Source of the DNA: Pelagerythrobacter aerophilus
GTDB taxonomy: Bacteria; Pseudomonadota; Alphaproteobacteria; Sphingomonadales; Sphingomonadaceae
Direction of reading: 5' to 3'
NCBI RefSeq assembly: GCF_003581645.1
Contig: NZ_QXFK01000001.1
Location: forward strand, 1-36,545
Length of the DNA: 36,545 bases
Shown: positions 5,105 through 32,293 of the stretch, one piece after another
Numbering within the stretch: the first letter of the stretch is position 1
How the letters are laid out: every line of letters begins with the position of its first letter
Notes under the pieces: generated by a model
Database searches by the model: none
Told to the model about the DNA's origin: nothing
The model's input: only the letters and a program-made list of their open reading frames with translations
Made by a program: the position numbers and the translations under genes

Positions 5105-5132
5105 ATACGCACGGCAGCCGCGTGCCCCTCAC
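5105..5132 (-). promoter_or_regulatory. ECF-type promoter of the DUF2231-lipoprotein unit
   Basis: On the minus strand GTGAGGG (-35) - 16 nt - CGTAT (-10), ending 50 bp before the start at 5055. One of six copies in the window with identical spacing. Basis: sequence match; sigma assignment is inference. Confidence 0.75.
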
Positions 5133-5259
5133 ATTAATTTGATGGTATCGGCGCGATAGAAGTGCGCCCGCCGTATCACGTCTGCTGGCGGCACCATCGC
5201 GATCGTCGAATGCATTCGGCTCCTGGCCCCGTTCGCCCACGCGGACAGGCCCCATGGGC

Positions 5260-5991
5260 TCAGGCGAGCTTGCTCTTCTTTATGCGACGGCGCAGCCTCG
5301 GCATCCGGTTCGCCAGCAGGACGAAACCCGACAAGGCTATGATCGTGCCGCCAATGCCAAACAGGAGGAGCCACCAACTGTTGATGCGATCGCGCTCGGT
5401 CCAATCCATGATATGGAGGCCCCAGATGAAATCGAACAGGCGCCATGTATCACTACGCGCCGCTCCGAGCGTGCCGCTGGTAGCATCGATGTAGATGCGC
5501 GTGGAAGCCTCGTCAGCATAGCTGACCTGCCAAGCCGGAAAAGGCCCGCGAAACTCGGTCCCCACCGGTTCGTGAACGATCCGCGCGCCTTCGATCGTCG
5601 TTCGCGGTCCGGTCCATGCGCGCAAGGCGATGGATCTTGCCGTCGCAGCCGAGATGGGGGAGAGTTTACGCCCCGTCACCGGATCGTGGAGGCTCACGCT
5701 ACCGTCGACCTTTCGAATTTCTGTCACGGCAACGCCGTCGAGCGAACGTGTCGTCACCGCTGCAAGAGTACCGTCATTTGCGACCCAGGCCGGGAGCGGA
5801 CCATCGGCGGGCAGCGCCTCTTGTTCACGCGAAACGACATGTTCGGAGCGAACTTCTTCCAGGTCGAGAAACGACATGAGGGCGCCGGTGCCCATCCACA
5901 AGAGAACCTGGACACCGACGAAAATCGCCAGCCATTTGTGGATCTAGCTGCCGAGCACATGCACGCGCAGCTTCAGCGACGGCGTTGCCAA
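5260..5991 (-). pseudogene. PepSY-domain membrane protein interrupted by an amber codon
   Basis: Reading from a likely TTG at 5991 (after GAGG) gives LATPSLKLRVHVLGS, then a TAG stop at 5944-5946, then in the same frame IHKWLAIFVGVQVLLWMGTG. That is the normal first membrane helix of PepSY proteins and aligns with the intact paralogue at 13583-14287 (THKWLALVVGVQALLWTLTG). The rest has the paired PepSY region, the FDFIWGLHIMDW motif and a C-terminal helix. Full length would be about 243 residues, like the two intact copies. An ATG at 5901 would give 213 residues but cuts the first helix in half. A single base change (for example AAG to TAG) explains it. It is last in the copA1-copB1 operon, 27 bp after the NTF2-like gene. 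The family is thought to act in membrane electron transfer or peptidase control. Confidence 0.75.
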
Positions 5992-6018
5992 CCGGTGCTA
6001 CCTCTTCGAAAGCCGTGA

Positions 6019-6576
6019 TCAGTTGCGCGGCGAACGCGACGAGGAATGGTACTGGACGATCTTCCAGCCATCGGCATCGTGAGCCAGGACCGAGGTCGCA
6101 ACGCCTTCGCGGTCTATTACGCGGCCGTCGGCCAGTTCGATACGATAGGAGTACGTTTCGCGGCCATAGGCCATATGCCCCATCCGGGTGACTGCGAGCG
6201 TCGGTTCGCCGAAGGTGAAGCTGGTTATTGCATCGAGTTCCGGTCCCAGGTGATGCTCCATGTAATGCGTGAAGCTGCCTTCCGCCTTGCCGTTTTCGTA
6301 AATGAAGGATTCCTCGGCAAAAAGCGCGGCTATGGCCTCTGCATCGCGCGCCGTAAGGGCATCGCGATATGAGGTCAGAACTGCCTCGGCTCCCGTAACG
6401 TCATCGTTCATCGCAGCCATATGTTCGGCATGTTTCATGTCCTGGCCCGAATGGTCCATCGGCATCGCCTCAGAATGTTCCGAATGCGCCGAATGGTCCA
6501 TAGATTGTGCCAAGGCGGGAGTGGCACCCGCGGCCAGGGCGAGGGCGACCGCGTTTAGGAATAGTCTTGATCTCAC
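6019..6576 (-). CDS. Exported NTF2/SnoaL-like protein with His/Met-rich N-terminus
   Basis: A 185-residue protein with a Sec signal peptide (about 1-23, ATPALAQ). A His/Met-rich stretch follows (SMDHSAHSEHSEAMPMDHSGQDMKHAEHM, about residues 25-53). Then comes an NTF2-like fold of the DUF4440/SnoaL type (LTSYRDALTARDAEAIAALFAEESFIYENGKAEG ... GWKIVQYHSSSR). The N-part resembles the copper-binding repeats of CopB; the C-domain family binds small molecules or acts as an enzyme, so the protein may be a periplasmic copper chaperone or detoxification factor. The start is GTG at 6576 with GAAGGGAA upstream. It follows copB1 by 15 bp, so it belongs to the copA1 operon. Function is inferred from context. 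Confidence 0.78.
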   Translation of the reverse strand: MRSRLFLNAVALALAAGATPALAQSMDHSAHSEHSEAMPMDHSGQDMKHAEHMAAMNDDVTGAEAVLTSYRDALTARDAEAIAALFAEESFIYENGKAEGSFTHYMEHHLGPELDAITSFTFGEPTLAVTRMGHMAYGRETYSYRIELADGRVIDREGVATSVLAHDADGWKIVQYHSSSRSPRN

Positions 6577-6591
6577 TGTTCAGTTCCCTTC

Positions 6592-7809
6592 TTAAAACCA
6601 GAATCGTAAGCCGACGACGTAATTCGTCACGCTCGGGTCTTCGCCTGCAGCGCGTGCAAAATCGGCGCTCTGACCGATCCGCCATTCCTGGGAAACGCCG
6701 ACATAGGGCGCGAATTCGCGTGCGAACTCGTAGCGAAGACGCAAACCTGCCTCGATCCGATCGAGGCCAGCGCCAATGCCGAGTTCGGGAATATCCTGCG
6801 CCGAAAGTGCGATTTCGGCACGCGGCTGAAGGATCAGCCGCTGCGTGATGCGCTGATCAAGCTCGCCCTCAAAGCGCGCCGTAACATCGCCCTTGTTCGA
6901 TACGAACGCCGCGACGTCGACCTCGAACTGGTAAGGAGCGATGCCCTGGATACCGATCACCGCGTGCGTGCGCTCCGGACCGGTGAGGTCCTGGCGAACA
7001 CCGGCCTGGAAATCGAAGAAGGGCGCAATGGCGCGGCTCCAGAGCGCCTGGACCTCGGCGTCTTCTATGGGTTCGCCGAAGCTTCCCTCACCCTCCGACT
7101 TGAACCAGAATTTGTCGATGTCGCCGCCATAATATCCTTGGATGTCCCACAGATATCCTTCCTTCCCCTCGCGGGCGCGGTATTCGAGCCGATCGCCCTG
7201 AAACCAGAAGCGCATTCCTCCGTCAGTCTCGCGGACAAGCTCGCGGCGCGCTTCGTTCATGGCTTCCTCGCCCCAGATGGCGACCGCGGCGCGCGCTGGG
7301 CCGCTCCCGGCTTCTGGAGGAGGCGGCAGCAGCGGGATATCGGCATCGGAGCCCATTTGCATCGCCGAATGGTCCATGCCTTGCATGTCCTGCGAAGGCG
7401 TCCGCCCATGGTTCATCTGGCTGTGATCCATCTGCCCATGGTCCATCGACGAACTGGCGGCTTCCGCCTGTCCCATCTCGCCGTGATTCATCTGCGACTG
7501 ATCCATCCCGCCTTCGGCAGGCTTGCCCTGCGGCATCGAGCCGTGATCCATAGCCATGTGATCCATCTCGGAGTGGTCCATGGCGGCTTCAGACTGAGCA
7601 GCCGGTTCGCATGCTCCATCTGCTACCGGATGCCCCATCGCGCGATGGCGATCGGCTTCTTGCTCGCACTTTGTCTTCGCGTCAGCCTGCGCCTCGGCGC
7701 TTTGCTGCGGCTCCGCCGGCGAATGACGGGCATGCTGCGCCGCCGCGGGGGAGGCGAGAACTGAGCCGGCTGCGACCGATGCGAGCAGGCTGGCTATACG
7801 AATTTTCAT
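6592..7809 (-). CDS. copB: Copper resistance outer-membrane protein CopB (copy 1)
   Basis: 405 residues. Signal peptide about 1-24 (SPAAAQ). Residues about 70-155 form a dense Met/His domain with repeats such as MDHSEMDHMAMDHGSM and MDHGQMDHSQMNHG, the copper-binding part of CopB/PcoB. From about residue 165 the conserved CopB barrel follows (WGEEAMNEARRELVRE, FWFQGDRLEYR, GDIDKFWFKSEGEG, RFARAAGEDPSVTNYVVGLRFWF), ending in Phe as outer-membrane beta-barrels do. It probably sequesters or exports copper at the outer membrane. Its start overlaps the copA1 stop as ATGA. Copy 2 at 27729-28943 is related but has a different metal-binding N-domain. Confidence 0.93.
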   Translation of the reverse strand: MKIRIASLLASVAAGSVLASPAAAQHARHSPAEPQQSAEAQADAKTKCEQEADRHRAMGHPVADGACEPAAQSEAAMDHSEMDHMAMDHGSMPQGKPAEGGMDQSQMNHGEMGQAEAASSSMDHGQMDHSQMNHGRTPSQDMQGMDHSAMQMGSDADIPLLPPPPEAGSGPARAAVAIWGEEAMNEARRELVRETDGGMRFWFQGDRLEYRAREGKEGYLWDIQGYYGGDIDKFWFKSEGEGSFGEPIEDAEVQALWSRAIAPFFDFQAGVRQDLTGPERTHAVIGIQGIAPYQFEVDVAAFVSNKGDVTARFEGELDQRITQRLILQPRAEIALSAQDIPELGIGAGLDRIEAGLRLRYEFAREFAPYVGVSQEWRIGQSADFARAAGEDPSVTNYVVGLRFWF

Positions 7810-9614
7810 GCTTCGCTCCCGTCGGGATTGGCGACCGTGACGATCTGAAACATCCCGGCATGCATGTGGTAGAGAAGGTGACAGTGAAAGGCCCAGTCGC
7901 CCGGCTCGTCCGCTGTAAGGTCGAACTGCGCGCTGCCACCCGGTTGCAGGATTACCGTGTGCTTGAGCGGCTGACGATCCGCCGGCGCGCCATTGACCAG
8001 CTCGAAGAAATGACCGTGCAGGTGAATCGGGTGCGCCATCATCGTGTCGTTGACGAGCTTCACGCGCACGCGCTCATTATAGGCGAAACGGATCGGCTCG
8101 TCGGAGACGGCGGAGAACTTCTTGCCGTCGAACGACCACATGTAGCGCTCCATATTGCCGGTCAGATGGATTTCCATTCGCCGTGACGGCGTGCGGCCCT
8201 CGCGGTGTGGCGTCAGAGCGCGCAGCTTGCGATAGTCGAGCGTGCGGTGGGGCACATCGGCGAGACCGATGCCGGGATCGCCCATGCGGTCGACCGGATT
8301 CATCGAGACCATGTCGAGACCGGGCCCGACCTTCACATCGGACGGCAGAAGCGAGGTGTCGCGCATCTGCATGCCCGACATGCCGGCCATGCCTGCCATC
8401 TCGGATTGGCCGGACGAACCATGATCCATCCCCGCCATGTCGCCGCCACTTCCGTGGTCCATGCCCGACATGCCGGCATCGCCAGACGAGCCGTGGTCCA
8501 TGCCGCTCATGCCCATGTCCGCCATGGTTAGGAGCGGCGGATCGCGCAGCGGCGGAATGGCGGCGCGAGCGCCTGGTGCGCTCGCCAGCGTGGCAATACC
8601 CATGCCCGAGCGGTCCATCGACTCAGCGACCAGCGTGTAGGCCTGTTGCGCGCCCGGCGTCACGACGACGTCATAGGTTTCGGCCACACCGATCTGGAAC
8701 TCGTCGACCTCGACCGGCTCGACGTTCTGCCCGTCCGCCTGAACGATGGTCATCGGCAGGCCGGGAATACGAATATTGAAGAAGGTCATGGCGCCGGCAT
8801 TAATGAAGCGCAGCCGCACGCGTTCGCCTGGACGGAAGAGGTATTCCAGATTGTCGAGCGGGCCGTGGCCATTCAGAAGGTAGGTATAAGCCGCGCTCGA
8901 AACATCGAGGATGTCGGTCGGCATCATGCGCATTTTCGCCCACATCCGGCGGTCCTCGCCCGAAAGCGGGTAATCGTCGGTCCAGGTGTTCTGGTTGTAG
9001 TTGAAGTAGCCTTCGCCCTTCTTGAGCTTGTCGAAAATGGTGTGGGGCGACATGGCGCTGAATTCGCTCAGCACCACGATATATTCGCGGTCGGCCTGGA
9101 CCGGATCGGGTCCGGCGGGATCGACCACGATCGCGCCGTAATGCCCGGCCTGTTCCTGCAGGCCGCTATGGGAGTGCCACCAGTAAGTGCCCGACTGGCG
9201 AACCGGAAATTCGGCGGTGAAGGTCTCTCCCGGCTTGACCCCGGGGAAGCTTACGCCGGGCACGCCGTCGAGCTGAAACGGCACGAGCAGACCGTGCCAG
9301 TGGATCGAGGTATCTTCCTCGAGCTGGTTATGGACATTGAGCCGGACGGTCGTGCCTTCCTGCAAACGCAGCAGCGGACCGGGGATAGTGCCGTTGACGG
9401 CGATCGCTCCGCCGCGCCTGTTGCCGGTCGCGAAAGCCGATCGGGCAACGGTGAGGTCGATATTGGGGCCGGATAGCTCGTCCAGCCCTTTCCGGGCGTT
9501 ACCTGCGAGGATGTCCGCGCCGCGCGCCCAGGCAGGCATCGCCCCGGCAAGGCCGAGCAGACCCATTCCTCCTGCTCCGGCTCCGAGAAACTTGCGTCGA
9601 TTGACGGCGATCAT
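7806..9614 (-). CDS. copA: Copper resistance multicopper oxidase CopA (copy 1)
   Basis: 602 residues. A twin-arginine signal (NRRKFLG, residues 5-11, then a hydrophobic stretch to AWA) sends the folded enzyme to the periplasm. Copper sites are complete: HWHG at 105, WWHSHSG near 145, HPIHLHGHFF at 528 and HCHLLYHMHAGMF at 577, which supply type 1, 2 and 3 copper ligands. Residues about 370-425 are a Met/His-rich insert (repeats of GMSGMDHGS and AGMDHGS). It probably oxidises Cu(I) to less toxic Cu(II). ATG 9614 follows AGGAG. It heads the copA1-copB1-NTF2-PepSY unit and is preceded by an ECF-like promoter that overlaps the end of the sigma gene. Confidence 0.95.
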   Translation of the reverse strand: MIAVNRRKFLGAGAGGMGLLGLAGAMPAWARGADILAGNARKGLDELSGPNIDLTVARSAFATGNRRGGAIAVNGTIPGPLLRLQEGTTVRLNVHNQLEEDTSIHWHGLLVPFQLDGVPGVSFPGVKPGETFTAEFPVRQSGTYWWHSHSGLQEQAGHYGAIVVDPAGPDPVQADREYIVVLSEFSAMSPHTIFDKLKKGEGYFNYNQNTWTDDYPLSGEDRRMWAKMRMMPTDILDVSSAAYTYLLNGHGPLDNLEYLFRPGERVRLRFINAGAMTFFNIRIPGLPMTIVQADGQNVEPVEVDEFQIGVAETYDVVVTPGAQQAYTLVAESMDRSGMGIATLASAPGARAAIPPLRDPPLLTMADMGMSGMDHGSSGDAGMSGMDHGSGGDMAGMDHGSSGQSEMAGMAGMSGMQMRDTSLLPSDVKVGPGLDMVSMNPVDRMGDPGIGLADVPHRTLDYRKLRALTPHREGRTPSRRMEIHLTGNMERYMWSFDGKKFSAVSDEPIRFAYNERVRVKLVNDTMMAHPIHLHGHFFELVNGAPADRQPLKHTVILQPGGSAQFDLTADEPGDWAFHCHLLYHMHAGMFQIVTVANPDGSEA

Positions 9615-9645
9615 AAAGGGCTCCTGACTTGGCGTTTACCGTTAC

Positions 9646-9673
9646 TTACGCGCGCGCCCAGCCAACCCCTCAA
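9646..9673 (-). promoter_or_regulatory. ECF-type promoter of copA1
   Basis: TTGAGGG - 16 nt - CGTAA on the minus strand. The -10 part ends 32 bp before the copA1 ATG; the -35 part overlaps the stop codon of the sigma factor gene (9670-9672). Same signature as five other sites here. Confidence 0.72.
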
Positions 9674-10230
9674 AGTTTTTCGAAGCGCTCCTTCAGCCTG
9701 TTGCGCGCGCGATATACGCGGGTTTCGATCGCCTTTTCGGTCGTTCCGAGAAGATCGGCCGCCTCGGCCTGGCTACGCCCCTCGATGGTCACGAGCACAA
9801 GCGCTTCGCGCAGCCTTACAGGCATTCGCCCGATCTCGGCCTGAACGAGATTGAGCTCTTCCCTGGAAACGGCCAACGCTTCAGGACCCGGCAAATCGTC
9901 GGCGATGGAATGGAGTTCGTCATCACCCGACAGTCCGAAAAAGCCCGCGACCTTGCGCCTGCGCAAACGGTCCCGGCAGCGGTTGAGGACGACGGTTGTC
10001 AGATAGGGTCCGATCGGCTTGTCCGGATCAAGCCGATGGCGCGTCAGCCACACCGAAGCGAGGCTGTCCTGAACAACGTCCTCGGCCTGAGAAGGAGAGG
10101 AAAGCATGCGTGTCCCGAGCGCGAGAAGCCGACCAGTTTCATGCTCGACGAGTTGGCTGAAAGCCCGCTTGTTTCCAGCCCTCGCCTGCGAGACAAGGGC
10201 CTCATCCGGATTGTCGCCCGCCCCCGACAT
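9670..10230 (-). CDS. ECF RNA polymerase sigma factor (cluster 1)
   Basis: 186 residues. Region 2 (RAFSQLVEHETGRLLALGTRML...AEDVVQDSLASVWLTRHRLDP) and region 4 (IGRMPVRLREALVLVTIEGRSQAEAADLLGTTEKAIETRVYRARNRLKERF) are present; regions 1 and 3 are absent, as in ECF sigma factors. It directs RNA polymerase to a dedicated set of promoters. It sits 6 bp after a remnant of a CnrX-like sensor gene and directly before copA1, so it probably came from a cnrYXH-like cassette like that at 30895-32182. The sensor is broken and no anti-sigma gene is next to it, so its activity may be unrestrained or cross-controlled from cluster 2. The ribosome binding site is weak, suggesting coupling to the lost upstream gene. 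Confidence 0.9.
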   Translation of the reverse strand: MSGAGDNPDEALVSQARAGNKRAFSQLVEHETGRLLALGTRMLSSPSQAEDVVQDSLASVWLTRHRLDPDKPIGPYLTTVVLNRCRDRLRRRKVAGFFGLSGDDELHSIADDLPGPEALAVSREELNLVQAEIGRMPVRLREALVLVTIEGRSQAEAADLLGTTEKAIETRVYRARNRLKERFEKL

Positions 10231-10236
10231 GGCGCT

Positions 10237-10365
10237 TCAGTCGCGCGGGTCGCGGGTCAGGGCGTCGGAGACCTTGCGGTCGAACTGGCGTTGCTGCTCG
10301 GGTTCGAGAATTTCACGCATGTCGAAGACATGGCGCACCGTTGCCTTCGGAGGGGGTACTAGCAT
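10237..10365 (-). pseudogene. Remnant of CnrX-like periplasmic metal sensor gene
   Basis: Only the C-terminus remains. From about base 10347 the frame reads KATVRHVFDMREILEPEQ and runs to a stop at 10237. It aligns with the end of the intact sensor at 31476-31913 (KETLQHLFAMRGVLSPEQ...); I count 18 identical of 35 positions. The bases before it (MLVPPP) are not homologous, so the 5' two thirds were lost at a breakpoint near 10348, close to the integrase gene. The remnant has an ATG at 10365 and could give a 42-residue peptide without signal or sensor core. It is too short for standard gene calling. Confidence 0.8.
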
Positions 10366-10484
10366 GTTTACGCCGGACAACGCCAGAGCAAGTTTTTGCT
10401 TGCTAACATACTCAAATATATCAACTTTCTTGCTTTGTCGATTTGCGCCGGTCTAACCTCAGATGCGCCCTGATTTTCCTCCGC

Positions 10485-10504
10485 GTGCTTACGTGGTGCT
10501 TACG
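10485..10504 (+). repeat. Direct repeat upstream of the integrase gene
   Basis: GTGCTTACG occurs at 10485-10493 and again at 10496-10504, 11 bp apart, just before the integrase gene (10533). Short tandem repeats beside int are often arm-type binding sites or part of the attachment region. The stretch 10366-10484 has no gene; it is AT-rich at 10391-10440 and contains a small GCAAG/CTTGC inverted repeat. No tRNA gene was found as attachment target. Confidence 0.4.
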
Positions 10505-10532
10505 CGAAACCGGGCCAAAAGGAGAAGGCTCG

Positions 10533-11870
10533 ATGGTCAAATTGACCAAACGCGTCGTCGATGCAGTTGTAGCGGAAGCGAATGACTATGTCCTCTGGGA
10601 TGAGGAATTGCCGGGCTTCGGGCTCCGGATATTCCCGACCGGGAAACGCAGCTATCTCATTCAGTATCGATCGGGCGGCCGCTCGCGTCGTTACACCATC
10701 GGCACCCACGGCATTTGGACGCCCGAAGCGGCAAGGCGCGAGGCCAAGATGCAACTCGCGCGCGTTGCGCAAGGTGAGGATCCTGCGGAAGATCGGGCAG
10801 AGCTCAACAAGGCGATGTCGATGAAGGAACTCTGCGAGCTTTACATGCAGGACTTAAGAGATGGTCTTATCCTCGGCAAAGGAGGGCGGCCAAAGAAGAA
10901 ATCGACCGTCGATATCGATCTCGGGCGGATCGAGCGACACGTCATCCCGCTCCTTGGATCACGCCGGGTTAAGGATCTCACAAAAGCGATTCTCACGAAG
11001 GTCATGCGCGATATCATGGCGGGAAAGACGAGAGCCTTCATCAAGACCAGCAAGCTGCGCGGTCGAGCCAATGTCCGCGGCGGCCCAGGCACGGCGGCTC
11101 GGACCCTCGGATTGATTGGCGGCATACTGACCTATGCCGTCGATCTCGGCATCATCGACAGCAACCCCGCGCATGGCATCAAACGTCCCAAAGACAATGT
11201 CCGTTCTCGACGGCTCAACGATGGCGAGTATCGAATTCTCGGCCGTATGCTGAAAAGCGCCGGGCAAATCGAGAAGTTCGGCCCAACGATCGACATCATT
11301 CGGCAAATCGCCCTCACCGGTTGCCGACGCGGGGAGATCATCAATCTCAAATGGTGTGATGTCGATCTCGATGGAAGTTGCCTCCGGCTTTCCGACAGCA
11401 AGGAGGGAAAGTCAGTCCGTCCTATTGGCCTGCCGGTCGTAGAGTTTCTCGAGCAGCAGCAAAGCGAAGACAGCGGCACATATGTGTTTTCCGGGCCGCG
11501 AGGGGAAGACACCGCATTTGGCGGCTTTCCAAATCACTGGGGCTAGATATTCCTGGGTTCACCCCTCGAAGGCGTCACACCGCACGTTCTGCGTCACAGT
11601 TTCGCCAGCATCGGCAACGACCTCGGATTTACCGAAGTCACCATCGCGGCGCTGATGGGTCACGCGAAGGGCACTGTCACCAGCAAATATATTCACGTTC
11701 TGGATGCCGCCCTCATCATGGCTGCGGACACTCTTTCTGGATACATCGCTGCTTTGCTTGACGGCGCCGTTTTCAAGCAAAGGGCATATTCACTCGACCG
11801 CGGATCGCGAAAGGCGGCATTGGCAGATTTCATCGCCCGGCAGGAAGCACCCCGAAAAAAGGCGGCATGA
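10533..11870 (+). pseudogene. P4-type tyrosine integrase interrupted by an amber codon
   Basis: The frame from ATG 10533 (AAGGAG upstream) begins MVKLTKRVVDAVVAEANDYV, a DUF4102-type N-domain, then a SAM-like core-binding domain and the first catalytic Arg (ALTGCRRGEI). It stops at TAG 11544-11546 after GGFPNHWG. In the same frame it continues IFLGSPLEGVTPHVLRHSFAS (HxxR), LMGHAKGTVTSKYIHV (catalytic His and Tyr) and ends at 11870. The gene is thus complete (445 codons) except for one stop, probably one base change. The truncated product lacks the catalytic Tyr and should be inactive. It borders the breakpoint that destroyed the cluster 1 sensor, so it probably belonged to the element that rearranged this locus. 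Confidence 0.85.
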
Positions 11871-12847: not shown

Positions 12848-12851
12848 CGCG

Positions 12852-13586
12852 TCAGGCGGTTCGGCGGACCACAACGGGCTTGCGGCGCCGGCGCAGCCAA
12901 CGGAAATCCGCGCGACTGAAGCTCTTGAACAGCAGATAGAAGCCGGTGCCGGAAAGCCATAGGGCGCCAAAGGCGACGAAGATGATAAGCGGGTGGTTGA
13001 AGCTGGATCGGTTGATGTAGTCCATATTGTGGAGCATCCAGAAGAAGTCCCACGTCCGCCAGGTGTCGCCGCGCATGACGAGGAAGCGTGCGGTATCCAG
13101 CGAGACATAGGCGCTGCTGTTCTCGGCATCGGCAAAATCGACCCGCCACATAGCACCTTCGTGATCGCGCGATTCGAGGTTCGGCTTCGCGATCACGCTT
13201 ACCTTGCGGATCGGCGCCTCATTCATCATCGATGCGACTTCGCGGGCAATTCCCTCATCGACGCGAATATCAGCGCCGTCCGTAGCGTCGACCAACCGAA
13301 TGCCTTTAGGGGTGCGGAGTTCGTATACCGGCCGGGTGCCAAGATCTCGCAAAACGACCCCGGTAACAGGTTCGCCTTGCGGCAAGGCGGCGATGTCGAA
13401 ATATTCGCCCGGCGGCAGCGGATGCGAATGCGCCATCCCGCCGCCATGGCCACCGACCTTGTCCTTGTCGAGCAGCGCCATTACCGATCCGCTCAGCGCC
13501 CAGAGCAGGAACTGGAGGCCGAGGATCAGGCCGACCCATTTGTGGACACGCCGGAAGAAAAGCGGCGTCAGGCGGATTTTCTTCAT
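12852..13586 (-). CDS. PepSY-domain membrane protein (distal gene)
   Basis: 244 residues. N-terminal membrane helix (RRVHKWVGLILGLQFLLWALSGSVMALL), a periplasmic part with His-rich GGHGGGMAHSHPLPPG, PepSY-like repeats, and the conserved WDFFWMLHNMDYINR followed by a C-terminal helix and a basic tail (RWLRRRRKP). PepSY_TM proteins next to TonB receptors are thought to reduce the imported metal chelate or otherwise serve uptake; the exact chemistry is not known. Its start overlaps the upstream PepSY gene as ATGA, so the two are translated together. Related to 13583-14287 and to the broken copy at 5260-5991. Confidence 0.85.
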   Translation of the reverse strand: MKKIRLTPLFFRRVHKWVGLILGLQFLLWALSGSVMALLDKDKVGGHGGGMAHSHPLPPGEYFDIAALPQGEPVTGVVLRDLGTRPVYELRTPKGIRLVDATDGADIRVDEGIAREVASMMNEAPIRKVSVIAKPNLESRDHEGAMWRVDFADAENSSAYVSLDTARFLVMRGDTWRTWDFFWMLHNMDYINRSSFNHPLIIFVAFGALWLSGTGFYLLFKSFSRADFRWLRRRRKPVVVRRTA

Positions 13587-14287
13587 GCCTTCTTCCTCTT
13601 GCGGCGCGGGAAGGACCAGATAAGCAGCCAGGCGCCCGTTAGCGCCATGGCAAAGGCGCTCCAGGTCGCGACGCGGAGCAGCGGGTTGTTGACGTCGGTG
13701 CGCTCATCATAGTCCATGATGTGCAGCATCCAGGCGAAGTCGAAGACGCGCCAGAGCGCGTGCCGGCGCGAAATCAGCTCGCCCGTCGTCGGTGACAGAT
13801 AGAGCGTCGGGCGATTCCAGCCCTCGAACTCGACCTGCCAATAGGGTGGCTTGCGCGCCTGCATTTCCTGGGGCGCTTTGGTCAAGAGTCGCACCGAGAC
13901 GATCTTGCCGTCACCGGTGTAGATGCGCCGCGCCTGCTCGCGAATCTGAGCCTCGGTAAGATCAGCCAGTGGCGCACCCGACCGCGCATCGAACAGGCGC
14001 GCCCCTTCAGGGGTCTCAGCACGCCAGACCGGCTGACCCGAAAGCCGCTGAAGACGGATTTCGGACACCCCCGGCATGGCCGCGACGACCTTCGACGGCG
14101 CGACCAGGCCGTCGAGGTCGAAGGGCTGGGCGACCGGGGAGCGCACCAGATTGTCGCCGTGGATGGTGTCGATATGCACCGCCACCATGTAAAAGCCGGT
14201 CAGCGTCCAGAGCAAAGCCTGAACCCCGACGACCAGCGCCAGCCATTTATGCGTTCGCCGAACGAGCAGCGGCCAACGTATCGCCAT
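13583..14287 (-). CDS. PepSY-domain membrane protein (proximal gene)
   Basis: 234 residues with the same plan as its neighbour: helix 1 RRTHKWLALVVGVQALLWTLTGFYM, a periplasmic domain with PepSY-type segments (LTEAQIREQARRIYTGDGKIVSVRLL), the motif FDFAWMLHIMDYDERTD, a C-terminal helix and a basic tail. It lies 11 bp after the TonB receptor stop and overlaps the next gene by 4 bp. The pair may act as a heterodimer in the inner membrane. Conserved His in THKW and MLHIMD could bind heme or metal (inference). It is expressed from the receptor promoter. Confidence 0.85.
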   Translation of the reverse strand: MAIRWPLLVRRTHKWLALVVGVQALLWTLTGFYMVAVHIDTIHGDNLVRSPVAQPFDLDGLVAPSKVVAAMPGVSEIRLQRLSGQPVWRAETPEGARLFDARSGAPLADLTEAQIREQARRIYTGDGKIVSVRLLTKAPQEMQARKPPYWQVEFEGWNRPTLYLSPTTGELISRRHALWRVFDFAWMLHIMDYDERTDVNNPLLRVATWSAFAMALTGAWLLIWSFPRRKRKKA

Positions 14288-17131: not shown

Positions 17132-17159
17132 ATACGCATCCCGACGCATCATCCCTCAT
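17132..17159 (-). promoter_or_regulatory. ECF-type promoter upstream of TonB receptor 1
   Basis: ATGAGGG - 16 nt - CGTAT on the minus strand, about 128 bp before the start at 17004. Same signature and spacing as the copper promoters. The rest of 17165-17287 has no visible gene or terminator. Confidence 0.68.
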
Positions 17160-22530: not shown

Positions 22531-22585
22531 AAATGAGGCTTTCGATGCTAGTGCCATAAGAATTAGCTATGGGGAGCGAAGTCCG
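22531..22585. promoter_or_regulatory. Divergent promoter region aapJ / lysR
   Basis: The 55 bp between two divergent starts must hold both promoters or overlap the coding ends. LysR regulators usually bind such a region and act on both genes. A T-N11-A type site could be placed in the AT-rich part, but none is convincing by eye. Confidence 0.4.
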
Positions 22586-23491: not shown

Positions 23492-23527
23492 GCCGGGACG
23501 TCGCGGCACGGCCATCGAAGCCCCGGG

Positions 23528-26353: not shown

Positions 26354-26695
26354 TCACATCTTGTCCATGTCGTGCCCGGCGTGAGGGTCGGGCTCGGCCG
26401 GCTTCGCAGGGTCCGGGGCGGGCTTTGCGACGGGAGGCACGGGCGCCTTAGCCACGGGTTCTTTCGCGGGACGCGATGTCTCGGGCGGCTTCGCACCGTC
26501 GGTGGCGACTGCCGGCTCCTCCTGAGCCGGTGCTCCCTCCACGGCAGGCGGAGTTTCAGCGATCGGCGGCGTCATTCCGCCGGGGTTTCCGCGCTGTTCT
26601 GACGGCCCTTCATTCGTCTGCGTGGGTTCGGCGCCGCATGCGGCCAGGGCAAGGATCAGCGCGGTCGCGCTGGTCAAGGCAATGCGTCTCATCAT
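26354..26695 (-). CDS. Small lipoprotein with PHAGHDM metal-binding tail (copy 2)
   Basis: 113 residues. Lipoprotein signal with lipobox LAAC (Cys20), then a long Pro/Ala/Glu-rich flexible stalk (PPAVEGAPAQEEPAV, PVPPVAKPAPDPAKPAEP) ending in DPHAGHDMDKM. The tail is nearly the same as in the lipoprotein at 3962-4369, while the rest differs except in composition. This suggests a membrane-anchored arm that presents a His/Met/Asp copper site in the periplasm. ATG 26695 follows a strong AAAGGAG. Last gene of the copA2-copB2-DUF305-DUF411 operon, 28 bp after the DUF411 gene. Not recognised as a named family. Confidence 0.78.
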   Translation of the reverse strand: MMRRIALTSATALILALAACGAEPTQTNEGPSEQRGNPGGMTPPIAETPPAVEGAPAQEEPAVATDGAKPPETSRPAKEPVAKAPVPPVAKPAPDPAKPAEPDPHAGHDMDKM

Positions 26696-26723
26696 GTCAG
26701 TCTCCTTTTGTCGCGACGGCGGA

Positions 26724-27245
26724 TCACGCGCGGAATTCGGACACCTTGCCGCCGCCGAACGCCATAACGTCGAAGGCGTCGACGCTTCCGTCCGGCATTT
26801 CCATTCCCGGGGAGCCGCGCGGCATTCCCGGCACCGCGATGCCGCGAATGTCGCGCGGCTTTTCGAGGAGCAGTTTCGCGACATGGCGCATCGGCACATG
26901 ACCTTCGACGGCATAGCCGCCGATTATCGCCGTGTGGCACGAGGCCAGATCGGCAGGCACGCCATATTGCGTCTTGACGGCGGCCATGTCCGAGCGGTTC
27001 TCGACAATCACCTCATAGCCGGCCTTGCGCGCGATATCCGCCCAGGCCTCACAGCAGCCGCATCCGGGATCGCGGTAGACGAGCATCCGCCCAAGATCCG
27101 CCGCTTCGTCGCGAGGCTTGCGAGCCGGGTCATTTTTCTCACCTGTCGCTGCCGGGGCCGGAGCGGCATTGCACGCCGCAAGCGCGACTCCCGAGCCGGC
27201 CGCGATCAGGCCGATAAGATAGCGGCGCGTCATCGGGCTTTGCAT
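26724..27245 (-). CDS. DUF411-family metal-binding protein
   Basis: 173 residues. A twin-arginine-like/lipoprotein signal (MTRRYLIGLIAAGSGVALAAC, lipobox LAAC), then the DUF411 core MLVYRDPGCGCCEAWADIARKAGYEV, with the CxCC copper-binding motif, SCHTAIIGGYAVEGHVP and PGMPRGSPGMEMPDG. DUF411 proteins (CopG type) bind copper and occur in cop operons, where they may shuttle Cu between periplasmic proteins. Start overlaps the region of the DUF305 stop (1-bp gap), whose end supplies GAGGAAATG as ribosome site. Fourth gene of the copA2 operon. Confidence 0.88.
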   Translation of the reverse strand: MQSPMTRRYLIGLIAAGSGVALAACNAAPAPAATGEKNDPARKPRDEAADLGRMLVYRDPGCGCCEAWADIARKAGYEVIVENRSDMAAVKTQYGVPADLASCHTAIIGGYAVEGHVPMRHVAKLLLEKPRDIRGIAVPGMPRGSPGMEMPDGSVDAFDVMAFGGGKVSEFRA

Positions 27246-27246
27246 G

Positions 27247-27690
27247 TCATTTCCTCACGAGAATGGATTTCATCTGTTCGATTTCGGCAGCCTGTCCCGC
27301 GATAATAGTGCGGCAAAGTTCGCGTATTTCGGCATCCTTCAGCGATGCCTGCTCACACATGAGGATTGCCCCCGAATGATGCGGAATCATTGAACGGAGG
27401 AAGGCCGTATCGCCAATTGTCGTCTGGGTCCGGATCAGTCCGAAACTTCCGAAAAAGGCGACCGCCGACCCCAGCAAGAGAAGCAGGTTGAAGCGCTTCG
27501 ATGGAAACATGTCCGGCATCGCGACGATCATCAGCACCACCATCGGCGAGACCATCATCAGCGTCATGTAGAGCATGTTCAGATTATTGTAGAAGCTCGA
27601 GAGGCGGTCGATCATGACGAACATCACCAGATACATGATGACACCGCTGACGATCGTCTGCAGCGCAAGGCTGCGATAGGCTGGTTTCAC
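27247..27690 (-). CDS. Membrane-anchored DUF305 protein
   Basis: 147 residues from GTG 27690 with GAGGAG upstream; a longer frame to 27828 was rejected because it lies inside copB2. Three hydrophobic segments (LQTIVSGVIMYLVMFVMI, LYMTLMMVSPMVVLMIVA, FNLLLLLGSAVAFFGSFGLI) precede a DUF305 motif FLRSMIPHHSGAILMCEQASLKD. The HH-E-type motif of DUF305 resembles ferritin-like metal sites and is thought to bind copper. The protein probably presents this domain at the inner membrane. Lies 38 bp after copB2 in the copA2 operon. Confidence 0.87.
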   Translation of the reverse strand: MKPAYRSLALQTIVSGVIMYLVMFVMIDRLSSFYNNLNMLYMTLMMVSPMVVLMIVAMPDMFPSKRFNLLLLLGSAVAFFGSFGLIRTQTTIGDTAFLRSMIPHHSGAILMCEQASLKDAEIRELCRTIIAGQAAEIEQMKSILVRK

Positions 27691-27728
27691 GGCATTTCTC
27701 CTCGACGTGTCGCCGCCCCGCGAAACTT

Positions 27729-28943
27729 CTAGAACCAGGCCCGCACCCCCATGACGAAGCTGACGCCGCTCGCATCCTCGCCTGCGGCGCGCGCAAATCG
27801 CGCGGTATCGCCGACCTTGCGCGTCCATTCGACGCCGACATAGGGAGCGAATTCCTTTACGATCTCGTAGCGAAGGCGGAGGCCGAGCTCGAGGTCGGAG
27901 AGGCCCGAACCCGTTCCGGTCTCGGGCACATCCTGCAGCGCGAAATTGAATTCGGCCATCGGCTGGAGAATCAGCTTCTGGGTGATGCGTTGGTCGTAAT
28001 AGCCCTCAAGGCGGCCGAGCAGATCGCCCTTGTTCGAAAGAAACAGCGCGCCTTCGACCTCGAACCAGTAGGGCGCGAGGCCTTCGAAGCCGATCGTCGC
28101 ATAAGTCCGGTCGGGTCCGGGGCCGAGGTCCTGCCTGATACCCGCCTGCGCATTGAAATAGGGTCCAATCGCCCGGCTGTAGAGGGCCTGTATCTCGGTT
28201 TCCTCAACGCCTTCGCCGAACACACCTTCGCCTTCGCTCTTGAGCGTTAGGCGGTTGATGTCGCCGCCGTACCAAGCCTCGCCGTCCCAGCGGAAGCCGT
28301 CGCGTCCTTTGCGTGCCTGATATTCGGCCAGATTGAAGCTAATGAAAGCGATGGTTTGCGCGCCATTCTCCTTCATCATGTCGTGGCGCGAGTGCTCCAT
28401 TTCGGCTTGGGGATAGATGCGGTCGGCGTACCAGTCGCCGGGCGGCGGCGGCGCAGCGGCGTCGCCCGGCGGCAGGTCGGTCCCGCTGGCGCTCGTCGTC
28501 GCCATAGCTTCCATTCCGGCCATGGGATCCGCAGACTCGCCCTTCGGGGTGCAATGGCCCATTTTGGCATGTTCGGGCGGGCAATCGGGATCGGACGACT
28601 GCGGTGCGCCATGATCCATCGCACCCATGTCCGAAGCGCCCTTGTCTGGAGCCTCCGCCTCAGGCGTACAATGACCCATCGCCGCATGTTCGGGCGGGCA
28701 GCTTGAAGCCTCGGGTTCCATGTCCATGCCCTGCATGTTCCCATGGTCCATCTGCTCCATCGGTCCTTCGGCCGGCGCTTCGGGCGCGGGCTGGGCTACC
28801 GGCGCTGGCGCTGGCGTTGGCGAGGGAGCGGGTGTCGGCGCGGGCGCCGCACCATGCATCGAATGATCCATCGACTGCGCCGCGGCGGGCACAGCAAAGG
28901 CCAGCGGCGCGATACCAGCGAGGAGAAGCGCGACCCGGGTCAT
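27729..28943 (-). CDS. copB: Copper resistance outer-membrane protein CopB (copy 2)
   Basis: 404 residues. Signal peptide to about residue 23 (AAAQ), a Pro/Ala linker, then two copies of an unusual motif, CPPEHAAMGHCTP (82-94) and CPPEHAKMGHCTP (121-133), with MDHG-type repeats between. The CopB barrel follows (DWYADRIYPQAEMEHSRHDMM, GGDINRLTLKSEGEGVFGEG, GIRQDLGPGPDRTYATIG, SFVMGVRAWF), ending in Phe. Its start overlaps the copA2 stop (ATGA). Unlike copy 1, which has many MDH repeats, the N-domain here relies on Cys/His/Met motifs shared with CopA2. An upstream in-frame extension to 29015 lies in copA2 and was rejected. Confidence 0.93.
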   Translation of the reverse strand: MTRVALLLAGIAPLAFAVPAAAQSMDHSMHGAAPAPTPAPSPTPAPAPVAQPAPEAPAEGPMEQMDHGNMQGMDMEPEASSCPPEHAAMGHCTPEAEAPDKGASDMGAMDHGAPQSSDPDCPPEHAKMGHCTPKGESADPMAGMEAMATTSASGTDLPPGDAAAPPPPGDWYADRIYPQAEMEHSRHDMMKENGAQTIAFISFNLAEYQARKGRDGFRWDGEAWYGGDINRLTLKSEGEGVFGEGVEETEIQALYSRAIGPYFNAQAGIRQDLGPGPDRTYATIGFEGLAPYWFEVEGALFLSNKGDLLGRLEGYYDQRITQKLILQPMAEFNFALQDVPETGTGSGLSDLELGLRLRYEIVKEFAPYVGVEWTRKVGDTARFARAAGEDASGVSFVMGVRAWF

Positions 28944-30781
28944 TCGCCGTCTCCCTTCGGCCGGACGCTGACGACGCGCATCATCCCCGCGTGCATGTGA
29001 TAGAGAAGGTGGCAATGGAACGCCCAGTCGCCGAGCGCGTCGGCGGTGAAGTCGAAGCTCGCGGTGCCGCCCGGCTGGACGAGCACCGTATGCTTGCGCG
29101 GCGAACGGTCGCCCTTGCCCGTGACCAGTTCGAAAAAATGGCCGTGGAGGTGGATCGGGTGGCTCATCATCGAATCGTTGATGAGGTTGATCCGCACCCG
29201 CTCACCTTCGATGAAGGGGATCGGCTCGTGATAGTCGGACATTTTGATGCCGTCGAACGACCACATGAAACGTTCCATGTTGCCGGTCAGGTGGATGTCG
29301 AGCGAGCGCGACGCCGCGCGCACATCGGGATTGCGTTCCAGCGCGACAAGGTCGTGATAGGTCAGCACCTTGTGCCCCACGTTTTCAAGTCCCTGCCCTG
29401 GCTCGCCCATGCGATCCATCGGCATCGGCGAGATCGTCTGGACGCTCGGGTCGCGCTTGACCTGCGGCGCGACGCTGAAGTCGCGCATGCTGTGCTGCAT
29501 GCCGCCCGATCCATGATCCATGCCCGCCATCGCGCCGCCTTCGCCCGCCGGCGTGCAATGACCCATTTTCGCATGTTCGGGAGGGCAGGATGGATCGGTA
29601 GCGGGCATGGGCATGGCGCCCATGTCACCGCTGCCCGAATGGTCCATACCCGCCATCGCGCCGTCCGACATGTCGCCCATGCCCATGTCCTTCATGGTGG
29701 CGAGCGGGCGTTCGCGAAGCGGCGGCACCTCGGCGACCATGCCGGCGCGCGGTGCGAGCGTCGCACGTCCCATGCCCGAACGATCGTTCGCCTCGGCGAC
29801 GAACGTATAGGCGCGGTCCTCGGCCGGGGTGACGATGACGTCATAGGTTTCGGCGACCGCGATCTGAAACTCGTCGATTTCGGTCGGCACGACGTTGAGC
29901 CCGTCGGCCTGCACGACGGTCATCCTGAGGCCCGGGATGCGGACGTTGAAGATCGTCATCGCCGACGCATTGACGATACGCAGACGCACCCGCTCGCCCG
30001 GGCTGAAGAGCGCGGTCCAGTTGTCGCGCGGACCATGGCCATTGACGAGGAAGGTGTATGTCGAACCATTAACGTCTGCGACGTCGGTCGGGTCCATCCG
30101 CATCTTGCCCCAATCGATCCGCTCCTTGAGCGGTTGATCCTTGCCGGCGAGCAGACCCGCCAGCGTCTGGCGCTGCATGTTGAAATGGCCGGGATTGACC
30201 TTGAGCTTGCGGAAGATCGCTTCGGGCGAAAGCTGACTGTGGTCCGACAGCACGACAACATGTTCACGGTCGTAGCCGATCGGGTCAGCGCCCGCCGGGT
30301 CGATGACGATCGGCCCGTAATGGCCGAGTTGCTCCTGCAGCCCCGAATGGCTGTGATACCAGTAGGTGCCCGACTGGACGACGGGGAACTCGTAGACGAA
30401 GGTCGACTTCGGCTTGATGCCGGGAAAGCTCACCCCCGGCACGCCGTCCATCTGGAAGGGCAGGATCAACCCGTGCCAGTGGATCGAGCTGTCCTCGTCG
30501 AGGTCGTTAATGACGGTGAGCTTGGCCGTTTGCCCTTCCTTCAGCCGGATGAGCGGTGCGGGCACGGTGCCGTTGATCCCGATCGCGCGGCTGAGCTTGC
30601 CGTCGATCCGCATCGTCTGGCGCGCGATGCGCAGCGTGATGTCGTTGCCCGATACGGTGGGAAGAGGCGCGGTGATGCCCGAGGACACCGGCTGCGCCCA
30701 GGCGGGGAACCATGCGGCCATCGCCGCAGCAGCGCCTCCGCCCAAAGCTCCACTGACGAACCGACGCCTTTCCATCTGCAT
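28940..30781 (-). CDS. copA: Copper resistance multicopper oxidase CopA (copy 2)
   Basis: 613 residues. Twin-arginine signal (ERRRFVSGALGG, residues 4-15, to AWAQ). All copper ligand motifs are present: HWHG at 101, WYHSHSG at 141, HPIHLHGHFF at 541 and HCHLLYHMHAGMM at 589. The Met-rich insert (about 363-430) contains MKDMGMGDMSDGAMAGMDHS and the motif CPPEHAKMGHCTP (399-411), also found twice in CopB2. Periplasmic Cu(I) oxidase. It heads the five-gene operon copA2-copB2-DUF305-DUF411-lipoprotein and follows the ECF-like promoter at 30818. Similar to CopA1 throughout, but not a recent copy. Confidence 0.95.
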   Translation of the reverse strand: MQMERRRFVSGALGGGAAAAMAAWFPAWAQPVSSGITAPLPTVSGNDITLRIARQTMRIDGKLSRAIGINGTVPAPLIRLKEGQTAKLTVINDLDEDSSIHWHGLILPFQMDGVPGVSFPGIKPKSTFVYEFPVVQSGTYWYHSHSGLQEQLGHYGPIVIDPAGADPIGYDREHVVVLSDHSQLSPEAIFRKLKVNPGHFNMQRQTLAGLLAGKDQPLKERIDWGKMRMDPTDVADVNGSTYTFLVNGHGPRDNWTALFSPGERVRLRIVNASAMTIFNVRIPGLRMTVVQADGLNVVPTEIDEFQIAVAETYDVIVTPAEDRAYTFVAEANDRSGMGRATLAPRAGMVAEVPPLRERPLATMKDMGMGDMSDGAMAGMDHSGSGDMGAMPMPATDPSCPPEHAKMGHCTPAGEGGAMAGMDHGSGGMQHSMRDFSVAPQVKRDPSVQTISPMPMDRMGEPGQGLENVGHKVLTYHDLVALERNPDVRAASRSLDIHLTGNMERFMWSFDGIKMSDYHEPIPFIEGERVRINLINDSMMSHPIHLHGHFFELVTGKGDRSPRKHTVLVQPGGTASFDFTADALGDWAFHCHLLYHMHAGMMRVVSVRPKGDGE

Positions 30782-30817
30782 ATTCTTTCCGACCGTTTAA
30801 TGACTGTTCCTAAAGCC

Positions 30818-30845
30818 ATACGCAGGCGAGACGGCCGCCCCTCAA
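30818..30845 (-). promoter_or_regulatory. ECF-type promoter of copA2
   Basis: TTGAGGG - 16 nt - CGTAT on the minus strand; the -10 part ends 37 bp before the copA2 ATG (30781). It shares CCTGCGTAT around the -10 with the copC promoter. Confidence 0.75.
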
Positions 30846-30894
30846 TAATAATGCCGTCGATGAGGGAATGCCGCCAGATCGAGCGGTCGATATG

Positions 30895-31479
30895 TCAACC
30901 CCGCGCTCTCGCCGATGTTCCCGCGAGCAATTCCTTGAGCCTGGTTCGCGCACGGTACAGGCGCGTCTCGACCGTCTTCTCGCTGACCCGCAAAATTGCC
31001 GCGGCTTCGGCCTGGCTGACCTCATCCACGCCGCGCAGCAGCAGCACCTCGCGCAAATTTTGCGGCAGTTGGTCGATCGCTCCGCGGACCCGCGCAAGCT
31101 CGCGCTTGGCGGTCGCCTCGGAGTCGGGCGCGGGACCATCGCTCGCGACATGATGTGCACTCTCGAGCGGCAGCGCGCGAGAAAAAAAGGCACGCACTTT
31201 TCGCCGACGCGCCCAATCCCGGCATTTGTTGAGTGCGATACGGGCAATCCAGGTACGAAACGGCCGATCGCCATCATAGCGGTCGAGCGCGGAAAAGCCG
31301 GCAACAAAGCTCTCCTGCGTCAGGTCCATCGCCTCTTCGGCATCGCCGACTTGCTTGACGATGAGCCGGTAGACCCCCGCCTTGTACCGGCGCAGCAGCT
31401 CGCGATACGCATCCTCGCGGCGCGCGCGCGCAAAGACTGCCAATTCCTCATCGCTACATTGCGATAGGTCGGCGCTCAC
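30895..31479 (-). CDS. ECF sigma factor, CnrH-like (cluster 2)
   Basis: 194 residues. Region 2 (YRELLRRYKAGVYRLIVKQVGDAEEAMDLTQESFVAGFSALDRYDGDRPFRTWIARIALNKCRDWARRRK) and region 4 (IDQLPQNLREVLLLRGVDEVSQAEAAAILRVSEKTVETRLYRARTRLKELL) are complete. Third gene of a small-membrane-protein / periplasmic-sensor / ECF-sigma cassette whose order matches cnrYXH. Its start overlaps the sensor stop (ATGA). Best candidate to recognise the TGAGGG-N16-CGTA promoters, including the one of its own operon. Sigma 1 at 9670-10230 is a divergent relative and a second candidate. Confidence 0.92.
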   Translation of the reverse strand: MSADLSQCSDEELAVFARARREDAYRELLRRYKAGVYRLIVKQVGDAEEAMDLTQESFVAGFSALDRYDGDRPFRTWIARIALNKCRDWARRRKVRAFFSRALPLESAHHVASDGPAPDSEATAKRELARVRGAIDQLPQNLREVLLLRGVDEVSQAEAAAILRVSEKTVETRLYRARTRLKELLAGTSARARG

Positions 31480-31913
31480 CGTGCATCGGCGGTCAGCGCC
31501 TTGACCACGCTCTTGTCGAACATCTCCGCCTGTTCGGGGCTCAGAACCCCGCGCATCGCGAACAAATGCTGGAGCGTTTCCTTCTGCAGATCGCCCATCA
31601 CTTCATGCGTCTCGTCGATCGCCTTGGTGACCCTCGGACCATAGCCATGTTCGGCTTCGATCGCCTGCGCGAGCCGGACATTGGCGGCGCGCATTTCGAG
31701 TTCAAGCGCCCGGCGGCGACTTGCAAAGTCGGCTTCGATCCGCTCGATCTTCCTTTCCTGCTCCGCGGTGAGGTCGAGCTGCCCGTGGAGAAGCGCGTGG
31801 AGTTCGGTTTCGCTGGCGTCCGGGGCATCCGACACCGTGCGCCCGACGAAAACACCGGCGATGGCCGCAGCGAATGCGATGAGGCCCAGGAGAAGAAGGC
31901 GGCGCGACGGCAT
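31476..31913 (-). CDS. Periplasmic heavy-metal sensor, CnrX-like
   Basis: 145 residues. An N-terminal membrane anchor (RRLLLLGLIAFAAAIAGVFVGRTV) is followed by an all-helical periplasmic domain (ELHALLHGQLDLTAEQERKIERIEADFASRRRALELEMRAANVRLAQAI ... MGDLQKETLQHLFAMRGVLSPEQAEMFDK). This fits the CnrX/ZraP-like sensor fold, in which His and Met residues of a four-helix hairpin bind the metal. HALLHG, EAEHGYG, DETHEVM and LQHLFAM supply candidate ligands. It likely releases the anti-sigma protein when copper is bound. The 3' end of a second copy survives at 10237-10347. Confidence 0.88.
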   Translation of the reverse strand: MPSRRLLLLGLIAFAAAIAGVFVGRTVSDAPDASETELHALLHGQLDLTAEQERKIERIEADFASRRRALELEMRAANVRLAQAIEAEHGYGPRVTKAIDETHEVMGDLQKETLQHLFAMRGVLSPEQAEMFDKSVVKALTADAR

Positions 31914-31915
31914 CG

Positions 31916-32182
31916 TTACCGCACGTCCAGCAGAGTCGACGGCGCAAGCGCGCTCGAAGGGCCGAAGGGGGTGAAGGGACTCGCCGCGACCGCCGGTTGG
32001 GAAATCACGCTCCCCGCCACAATTCCGCCTCCGAGCGAAACAAAGGCGGCGAGCGCCATCAGGCGGCGCGTCGCCATCGCTTCGCGCCGACGGATCGCCA
32101 ATGCGCCCATGATACGATCGTCGAGCGCATCGAGCGCCGCGGGCAGATCGATTCGGTTCAAAATGCGAAGCTCATTATCCAT
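31916..32182 (-). CDS. Small single-span membrane protein, candidate anti-sigma factor (CnrY-like)
   Basis: 88 residues from ATG 32182; an upstream TTG at 32197 adds 5 residues. A charged cytoplasmic N-part (MDNELRILNRIDLPAALDALDDRIMGALAIRRREAMATRR) precedes one membrane helix (LMALAAFVSLGGGIVAGSVI) and a short periplasmic tail (QPAVAASPFTPFGPSSALAP). Size, topology and place (first, before sensor and sigma) equal those of CnrY, which holds the sigma factor with its short N-terminal helices. It shows no clear sequence match that I can recognise, so the role rests on layout. Its promoter carries the same ECF signature, giving autoregulation. Confidence 0.75.
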   Translation of the reverse strand: MDNELRILNRIDLPAALDALDDRIMGALAIRRREAMATRRLMALAAFVSLGGGIVAGSVISQPAVAASPFTPFGPSSALAPSTLLDVR

Positions 32183-32215
32183 CGACCGTCTCTTCAAACC
32201 TTTCCATCATTGTAC

Positions 32216-32243
32216 ATACGCGCCGAAGGGCCTCACCCCTCAC
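32216..32243 (-). promoter_or_regulatory. ECF-type promoter of the cnrYXH-like cassette
   Basis: GTGAGGG - 16 nt - CGTAT on the minus strand, the -10 part ending 34 bp before the start at 32182. Its -35 lies back to back with that of copC (32266). Supports autoregulation of the sigma factor. Confidence 0.75.
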
Positions 32244-32244
32244 G

Positions 32245-32266
32245 CGGAATATTCCGCCGGAATATT
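32245..32266. repeat. Direct repeat CGGAATATT between divergent ECF promoters
   Basis: CGGAATATT occurs at 32245-32253 and 32258-32266, 13 bp apart start to start; the first copy is part of the 12-bp palindrome CGGAATATTCCG. It fills exactly the space between the two divergent -35 elements. Probably a regulator operator or an AT-rich UP-like element serving both promoters. Confidence 0.6.
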
Positions 32267-32293
32267 TGAGGGCTACGCCGATATCCTGCGTAT
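32266..32293 (+). promoter_or_regulatory. ECF-type promoter of copC-copD
   Basis: TTGAGGG - 16 nt - CGTAT on the plus strand, the -10 part ending 31 bp before the copC ATG (32325). An inverted repeat TCCTGC / GCAGGA (32284-32289, 32296-32301) surrounds the -10 and could bind a repressor. Confidence 0.75.

Follow-up and report, generated by a model that had tools for sequence, protein, structure and literature searches.

The closest described relatives of the locus studied here are CnrYXH, the nickel/cobalt switch of Cupriavidus metallidurans plasmid pMOL28, and NccYXH. CnrYXH drives the resistance-nodulation-division (RND) nickel/cobalt pump CnrCBA. In its sensor, CnrX, the metal ligand positions are H42, H46, E63, H119 and M123. 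Met123 is named as a ligand in the consulted part of PMC7689651. We compared this system with a 36,545-nucleotide stretch of Pelagerythrobacter aerophilus DNA (hereafter the window), which is the whole of contig C7 of a 3.65 Mb genome in 19 contigs. The window carries six sites of the form TGAGGG-N16-CGTA upstream of copper genes, a TonB receptor gene, a DUF2231 gene and a cassette resembling cnrYXH, which encodes a sigma factor of the extracytoplasmic function (ECF) type (sigma2); a related sigma factor (sigma1) is encoded elsewhere in the window. The best reading of these features is a putative copper-linked ECF regulon of the CnrYXH type, a variant of the known nickel/cobalt switch.

The order of the cassette genes (30895-32182) was Y-X-sigma, as in CnrYXH and NccYXH and in many relatives, and both the sigma factor and the sensor were homologous to their counterparts in those systems. 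The solved structures closest to the sensor by sequence were NccX and then CnrX (E 8e-20). We aligned the sensor in 103 rows, comprising 102 unique homologue stretches and the window protein, which is possibly counted twice. All five CnrX ligands were conserved: H42 in 103/103 rows, H46 in 102/103, E63 in 103/103, and H119 and M123 each in 101/103. The position of the glutamate E106 in CnrX was occupied by an invariant His (103/103), and Gln was found at the positions of E55 (103/103) and H131 (102/103). These residue changes may reflect an altered metal selectivity. The CnrY-like protein contained one hydrophobic segment, starting at residue 42 by hydropathy, and had no match in Pfam or NCBIfam.

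The promoters were also similar but not identical. On pMOL28 we found CGAGGG-N17-CGTATA upstream of cnrC and CAAGGG-N17-CGTATA upstream of cnrY, with CCGTATA common to both; the spacing of 17 at cnrY was set by analogy, because a 15-base fit matches equally well. According to the excerpt of PMC9045368, the cnr transcripts start 24 and 25 bp ahead of the genes. On the pMOL28 sequence this is approximately 9 bases past CGTA. Both systems place a promoter at cnrY and another at the operon that follows the sigma gene, and they share YRAGGG and CGTAT boxes. However, the boxes are separated by 16 bases here, whereas the CnrH promoters are best fitted with 17. A further difference is the operon that follows the sigma gene, which is copAB in place of the CnrCBA pump, and we therefore classed the locus as a variant of CnrYXH and not as CnrYXH itself.

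A search of both strands of the window revealed six exact matches to TGAGGG-N16-CGTA (Table 1) and no others, where 0.07 were expected by chance (100 dinucleotide-preserving shuffles; largest shuffle count 1). A sequence-only reading had previously claimed the same six sites and the same expectation of about 0.07, although its coordinates overshot each site by one base on either side; its range of 30-130 bp to the gene starts also agreed with our measurements. Counted from the end of CGTA up to the start codon, the distances were 50, 32, 128, 37, 34 and 32 bp in coordinate order (32-128 bp overall). When up to two mismatches were allowed, we counted 19 sites compared with 25.6 expected, which is no excess, so the signal resides in the exact motif. 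The sequence-only reading had not recognized the consensus for any described copper ECF sigma factor. We found neither a copper-linked CnrYXH-type system nor this consensus in the open-access literature, with the 2021 ECF reclassification outside our coverage, but the motif is not without kin, as it resembles the Cupriavidus CnrH promoters (YRAGGGG...CCGTATA).

To compare relatives we scanned with the sigma2 protein alone and not with the motif, and kept the 80 best of the 376 stretches that were confirmed. These loci (1,226,419 bases) span Sphingopyxis, Novosphingobium, Altererythrobacter, Erythrobacter, Sphingobium, Blastomonas and other genera. Exact boxes were separated by 16 bases in 231 cases, by 10 bases in two and by 17 bases in one, while the remaining spacers between 10 and 23 and the reversed pattern gave none. 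All 80 loci had at least one exact-box site. The genes downstream of exact sites were cnrY (73), copA (70), copC (52) and the TonB receptor (20), with no recognized gene in 16 cases. A relaxed NRAGGG form preceded cnrY in 79/79 cases, copA in 75/78 and copC in 67/71, and a site was present at 20 of the 43 TonB receptor homologues.

We also assembled a non-redundant set from the 80 loci and 43 others, 40 of which were fetched at sigma or motif positions and were thus not blind. Removal of similar spacers left 82 exact sites, or 133 sites with at most two mismatches. Conservation of the boxes in this set is partly by construction, since the boxes were the selection criterion, but positions that were not selected were conserved as well, with G before CGTA in 80% and T after it in 64% of sites; the spacers held little information. 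Counting distinct spacers, the copA-side site overlapped the sigma gene in 26 of 76 cases, its first three bases forming the stop codon of that gene, an arrangement also seen at sigma1. Back-to-back pairs of sites, exemplified in the window by the cassette and copCD promoters, occurred 106 times over 122 loci (duplicates included). The divergent gaps were A+T-rich (42% G+C) and are possibly UP-like. A conserved regulator palindrome in the gap (GGAATATTCC in the window) was considered and rejected, as GAATATTC was present in 3 of 78 distinct gaps.

The sequence-only reading had proposed scanning the whole genome and related sphingomonad genomes for the motif. The P. aerophilus genome held 14 exact sites and one reversed pattern; of the eight exact sites outside the window, three were promoter-like, two ambiguous and three background. 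Among 248 other genomes of Sphingomonadaceae, site number followed the sigma homologue. A homologue at E<=1e-20 was present in 108 genomes and absent from 140. Exact sites averaged 4.33 per genome where the homologue reached E<=1e-40 (n=61), 4.94 where it lay between 1e-20 and 1e-40 (n=47) and 1.04 where no close homologue was found (n=140), compared with 2.00, 1.77 and 1.73 for the reversed control (Mann-Whitney p about 1e-30 for site number in genomes with versus without a homologue). As a further control we examined copA in 40 genomes chosen from the 140; 27 had copA, and a relaxed NRAGGG site was found at 0 of the 30 loci from these 27 genomes (one further match yielded no locus). The fixed 16-base spacing, the near-constant placement before cnrY, copA and copC across genera and the absence from copA loci of genomes without a close sigma homologue lend strong comparative support to the earlier proposal of an ECF -35/-10 pair that ties the cassette to the cop genes.

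The layout extended beyond this family. A search of 337 genomes of the class (E<=1e-25) matched the sigma factor in three genomes outside Sphingomonadaceae, and all three kept GGAGGG, CGAGGG or AGAGGG, N16 and CGTA; the layout was retained in three other families. Loci added from a search of the phylum were mostly in agreement: a set of 15 (11 outside Sphingomonadaceae, two inside and two named plasmids) together had 33 relaxed sites compared with one for the control. Plasmids of Sphingopyxis indica MC4 and Sphingobium sp. SYK-6 also carry the cassette.

Within the P. aerophilus genome, the three promoter-like sites outside the window were located at C6:201286, ahead of a third copAB; at C1:596077 (L045), ahead of a 95-codon signal-peptide-like open reading frame (ORF) with a high content of His, Cys and Met, which possibly encodes a copper-binding protein; and at C15:8244, about 50 bp upstream of an amino-acid permease gene. 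The ambiguous sites were C15:19072 and C15:27408, the latter within a cusF-like gene directly ahead of a multicopper oxidase gene. A relaxed search revealed one-mismatch sites ahead of a second cnrYXH-like cassette (CGAGGG, C6:210032) and ahead of a second TonB receptor-PepSY operon (TAAGGG, C1:601286). The form YRAGGG-N15-GCGTA gave 17 sites versus nine for its control, and this relaxed form is therefore weak evidence by itself in this genome. Contig C6 also encodes a third sigma factor of the same kind, 65% identical to sigma2 by blastp. Identical 26-mers were present at C6:725863 and C14:75189, and equal-scoring sigma genes at C6:741712 and C14:59207; these matching stretches suggest duplication or double assembly. 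The estimated contamination of the assembly was 4.71%.

The sigma1 cassette was truncated. Three window stretches between 1524 and 10348 were 92-96% identical to a copper island that a related genome (G162) carries, but this homology broke off at 10348, inside cnrX, where a phage-type integrase gene follows (region 10237-11546). Much of the right part of the island lay on contig C15 from 6741 (C15:6741-13279, 21205-31502), apart from the left part. In three other loci (L116, L144 and L145), a cnrX gene was located directly upstream of sigma1. A search of the P. aerophilus genome for PF13801 (CnrX-like) gave two matches, neither adjoining sigma1, and a DNA search of the same genome with the missing stretch gave only a 108-base match (76%) in the cnrX of sigma2. 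These results indicated that sigma1 is without neighboring anti-sigma genes.

We consider it highly likely from sequence that the six sites are promoters of the CnrH-like ECF sigma family. The sequence-level support consists of the sites, their spacing and placement, their family-wide conservation, the co-occurrence with the sigma factor and the sensor ligands. TGAGGG would be the -35 box and GCGTAt the -10 box of promoters read by sigma2, and the paralogues, sigma1 and the contig C6 sigma, would very likely read the same promoters. CnrY would keep the sigma factor at the inner membrane until metal is bound by the CnrX-like sensor in the periplasm, which would loosen CnrY and release the sigma factor. 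Together with RNA polymerase, the freed sigma factor would transcribe the cassette itself, giving positive feedback, as well as the divergent copCD, both copAB operons, the DUF2231 gene, the TonB receptor-PepSY operon and members elsewhere in the genome. If the geometry of the CnrH promoters applies, transcripts in the window would begin at about 5097, 9638, 17124, 30810 and 32208 on the minus strand and at about 32301 on the plus strand. We infer here that sigma2 reads these promoters, that CnrY acts as the anti-sigma factor and that copper is the signal; this last point is drawn from the copper-gene targets and is probable. Because the promoter is common to the copper genes and stands beside the metal-sensing sigma switch in many relatives, a single switch would very probably turn the copper genes on together.

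Several observations weigh against this interpretation. Three paralogous sigma factors are present, and the pairing of sigma factor and promoter is presumptive. In its ligands the sensor matches a nickel/cobalt sensor, so the sequence is no proof of copper, and other candidate regulators lie nearby, namely an AraC-type gene in the window and in Sphingopyxis indica, and cueR together with response regulators in SYK-6. There is redundancy among the 80 loci, many of which are from Sphingopyxis; the non-redundant count was intended to offset this. Even the relaxed site was missing at 3/78 copA and 4/71 copC genes. Among the 15 loci of the wider set, L297, L301 and L302 had no site and L304 had none at the usual places. 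Nine of the 108 genomes with a sigma homologue had no exact site or only one. Five of these nine were examined, and all five had at least one of the cnrY, copA and copC sites, either exact or with one mismatch: in G076 each of the three places had a site with one mismatch (TCAGGG, TGAGTG), G079 and G118 showed a mixture of exact and one-mismatch sites, the copA site of G113 lay on a contig that starts inside the sigma gene, and G168 (L148) had a site at copA only. Conversely, six of the 140 genomes without a close homologue had at least four sites. One of them (G007) carried the cassette in broken frames; another (G040, L274 10587-13675) kept copCD, cnrY, copAB and both divergent sites, with cnrX and the sigma gene missing between cnrY and copA. 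At most 13 candidates per genome were scored in this survey, which makes absences soft.

The same ECF promoters could instead serve a cassette that senses another metal (nickel, cobalt or zinc) or metal stress of the envelope in general, with cop induction as a secondary effect. The retained CnrX ligand set and the nearest characterized relatives, which are nickel/cobalt sensors, are consistent with this, but copAB after the sigma gene, with copCD opposite, in place of an RND nickel/cobalt pump argues against it, as does the extra invariant His in place of CnrX E106 (103/103 rows), and we regard this alternative as unlikely. A role of the sites as operators for a DNA-binding regulator, whether repressor or activator, is very improbable. 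Although such a highly fixed sequence and spacing would fit a protein with two fixed half-sites, and an AraC-type gene is found 3' of copD in the window and in Sphingopyxis indica, the boxes are asymmetric, oriented to gene starts and spaced like those of ECF promoters, and they resemble in sequence and place the CnrH promoters, which have known transcript starts.

Ownership by another sigma factor, such as the general stress factor EcfG of sphingomonads, is extremely improbable. EcfG of Sphingopyxis comes from related bacteria. According to the consulted part of PMC7083833, it also uses a 16-base spacer with a CGTT -10 box, and Sphingopyxis granuli mutated in ecfG2 is sensitive to copper. However, the same part gives its -35 box as GGAAC and places it in a nepR/phyR neighborhood. 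No GGAAC-N16/17-CGTT was found in the 100 bp to either side of the six sites, which led us to reject EcfG as the motif owner, and site counts across genomes follow the cnrH-like sigma factor. Two copper-responsive ECF factors were likewise considered. CorE of Myxococcus xanthus is copper-dependent and activates a multicopper oxidase gene; its C-terminal domain is rich in Cys and no cognate anti-sigma factor had been found, as given in the excerpts of PMC3107203 and PMC10141476, whereas sigma2 adjoins cnrYX. It was rejected because Cys occurs only at positions 8 and 86 in sigma2 and only at 85 in sigma1. SigAb of Acinetobacter is similar in responding to copper, in having anti-sigma genes in its operon and in an anti-sigma binding that has been likened to CnrH-CnrY, but its promoter is GTCAAC/CGTT with a spacing of 16-18 and its direct regulon comprises sigAb, relA and a small RNA and not cop genes (PMC12153292, consulted in part). 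The boxes here are TGAGGG and CGTA, and SigAb was therefore also rejected.

If a copper-responsive CnrH-like sigma factor does read these sites, they would define the promoter and the regulon through which sphingomonads and some other Alphaproteobacteria control copper, would show a nickel/cobalt sensor-sigma device re-aimed at copper and would offer a compact test of ECF spacing (16 versus 17) and of CnrX-type metal selectivity. The motif is a sequence handle for locating further copper genes. A broader extension, which we hold only tentatively, is a widespread alphaproteobacterial copper regulon under CnrH-like sigma factors in which a CnrX-type sensor with the invariant His added to its ligand set serves as the copper sensor, the promoter lies one spacer base off that of CnrH, several paralogous cassettes feed one promoter set and sigma1, without adjacent anti-sigma genes, may keep the whole regulon partly on.

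Table 1. Promoter-like sites and genes in the window.
Feature	Coordinates	Strand	Remarks
Promoter-like site	5106..5131	-	exact match; 50 bp upstream of DUF2231 gene
Promoter-like site	9647..9672	-	exact match; 32 bp upstream of copA1; its TGA is the sigma1 stop codon
Promoter-like site	17133..17158	-	exact match; 128 bp upstream of TonB receptor gene
Promoter-like site	30819..30844	-	exact match; 37 bp upstream of copA2
Promoter-like site	32217..32242	-	exact match; 34 bp upstream of cnrY
Gap separating two back-to-back -35 boxes	32243..32266	.	24 bp
Promoter-like site	32267..32292	+	exact match; 32 bp upstream of copC
DUF2231 membrane protein gene	4384..5055	-	Pfam on longer ORF 4384-5112
copB1	6592..7809	-	Pfam CopB
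copA1, multicopper oxidase	7806..9614	-	Pfam
sigma1, ECF sigma factor, 37% identical to sigma2	9670..10230	-	Pfam, blastp
cnrX remnant (3' end), upstream of sigma1	10237..10348	-	homology to G162 island stops at 10348
Two PepSY_TM protein genes	12852..14287	-	13583-14287 and 12852-13586; Pfam
TonB-dependent receptor	14299..17004	-	Pfam
DUF411, after DUF305	26724..27245		neighbor
DUF305, after copB2	27247..27690		neighbor
copB2	27729..28943	-	Pfam on longer ORF 27729-29015; start from gene caller
copA2, multicopper oxidase	28940..30781	-	Pfam
sigma2, CnrH-like ECF sigma factor	30895..31479	-	best PDB sequence match CnrH 4cxf, E 1e-31
CnrX-like periplasmic metal sensor (Metal_resist)	31476..31913	-	Pfam; PDB NccX/CnrX, best E 8e-20
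CnrY-like small anti-sigma candidate, 88 aa	31917..32182	-	position, conservation, hydropathy
copC and copD	32325..33678	+	copC 32325-32708, copD 32713-33678; Pfam on ORFs 31566-32708, 32713-33678

The genes were taken from tblastn and Pfam, since our own gene caller was crude: cnrX, cnrY and copC of the window were absent from its output, and in L116 and L275 it proposed antisense ORFs that are doubtful. An AraC-type gene was located 3' of copD in both the window and Sphingopyxis indica, and an IS110-type transposase gene (34970-36325) was present close to the window end.

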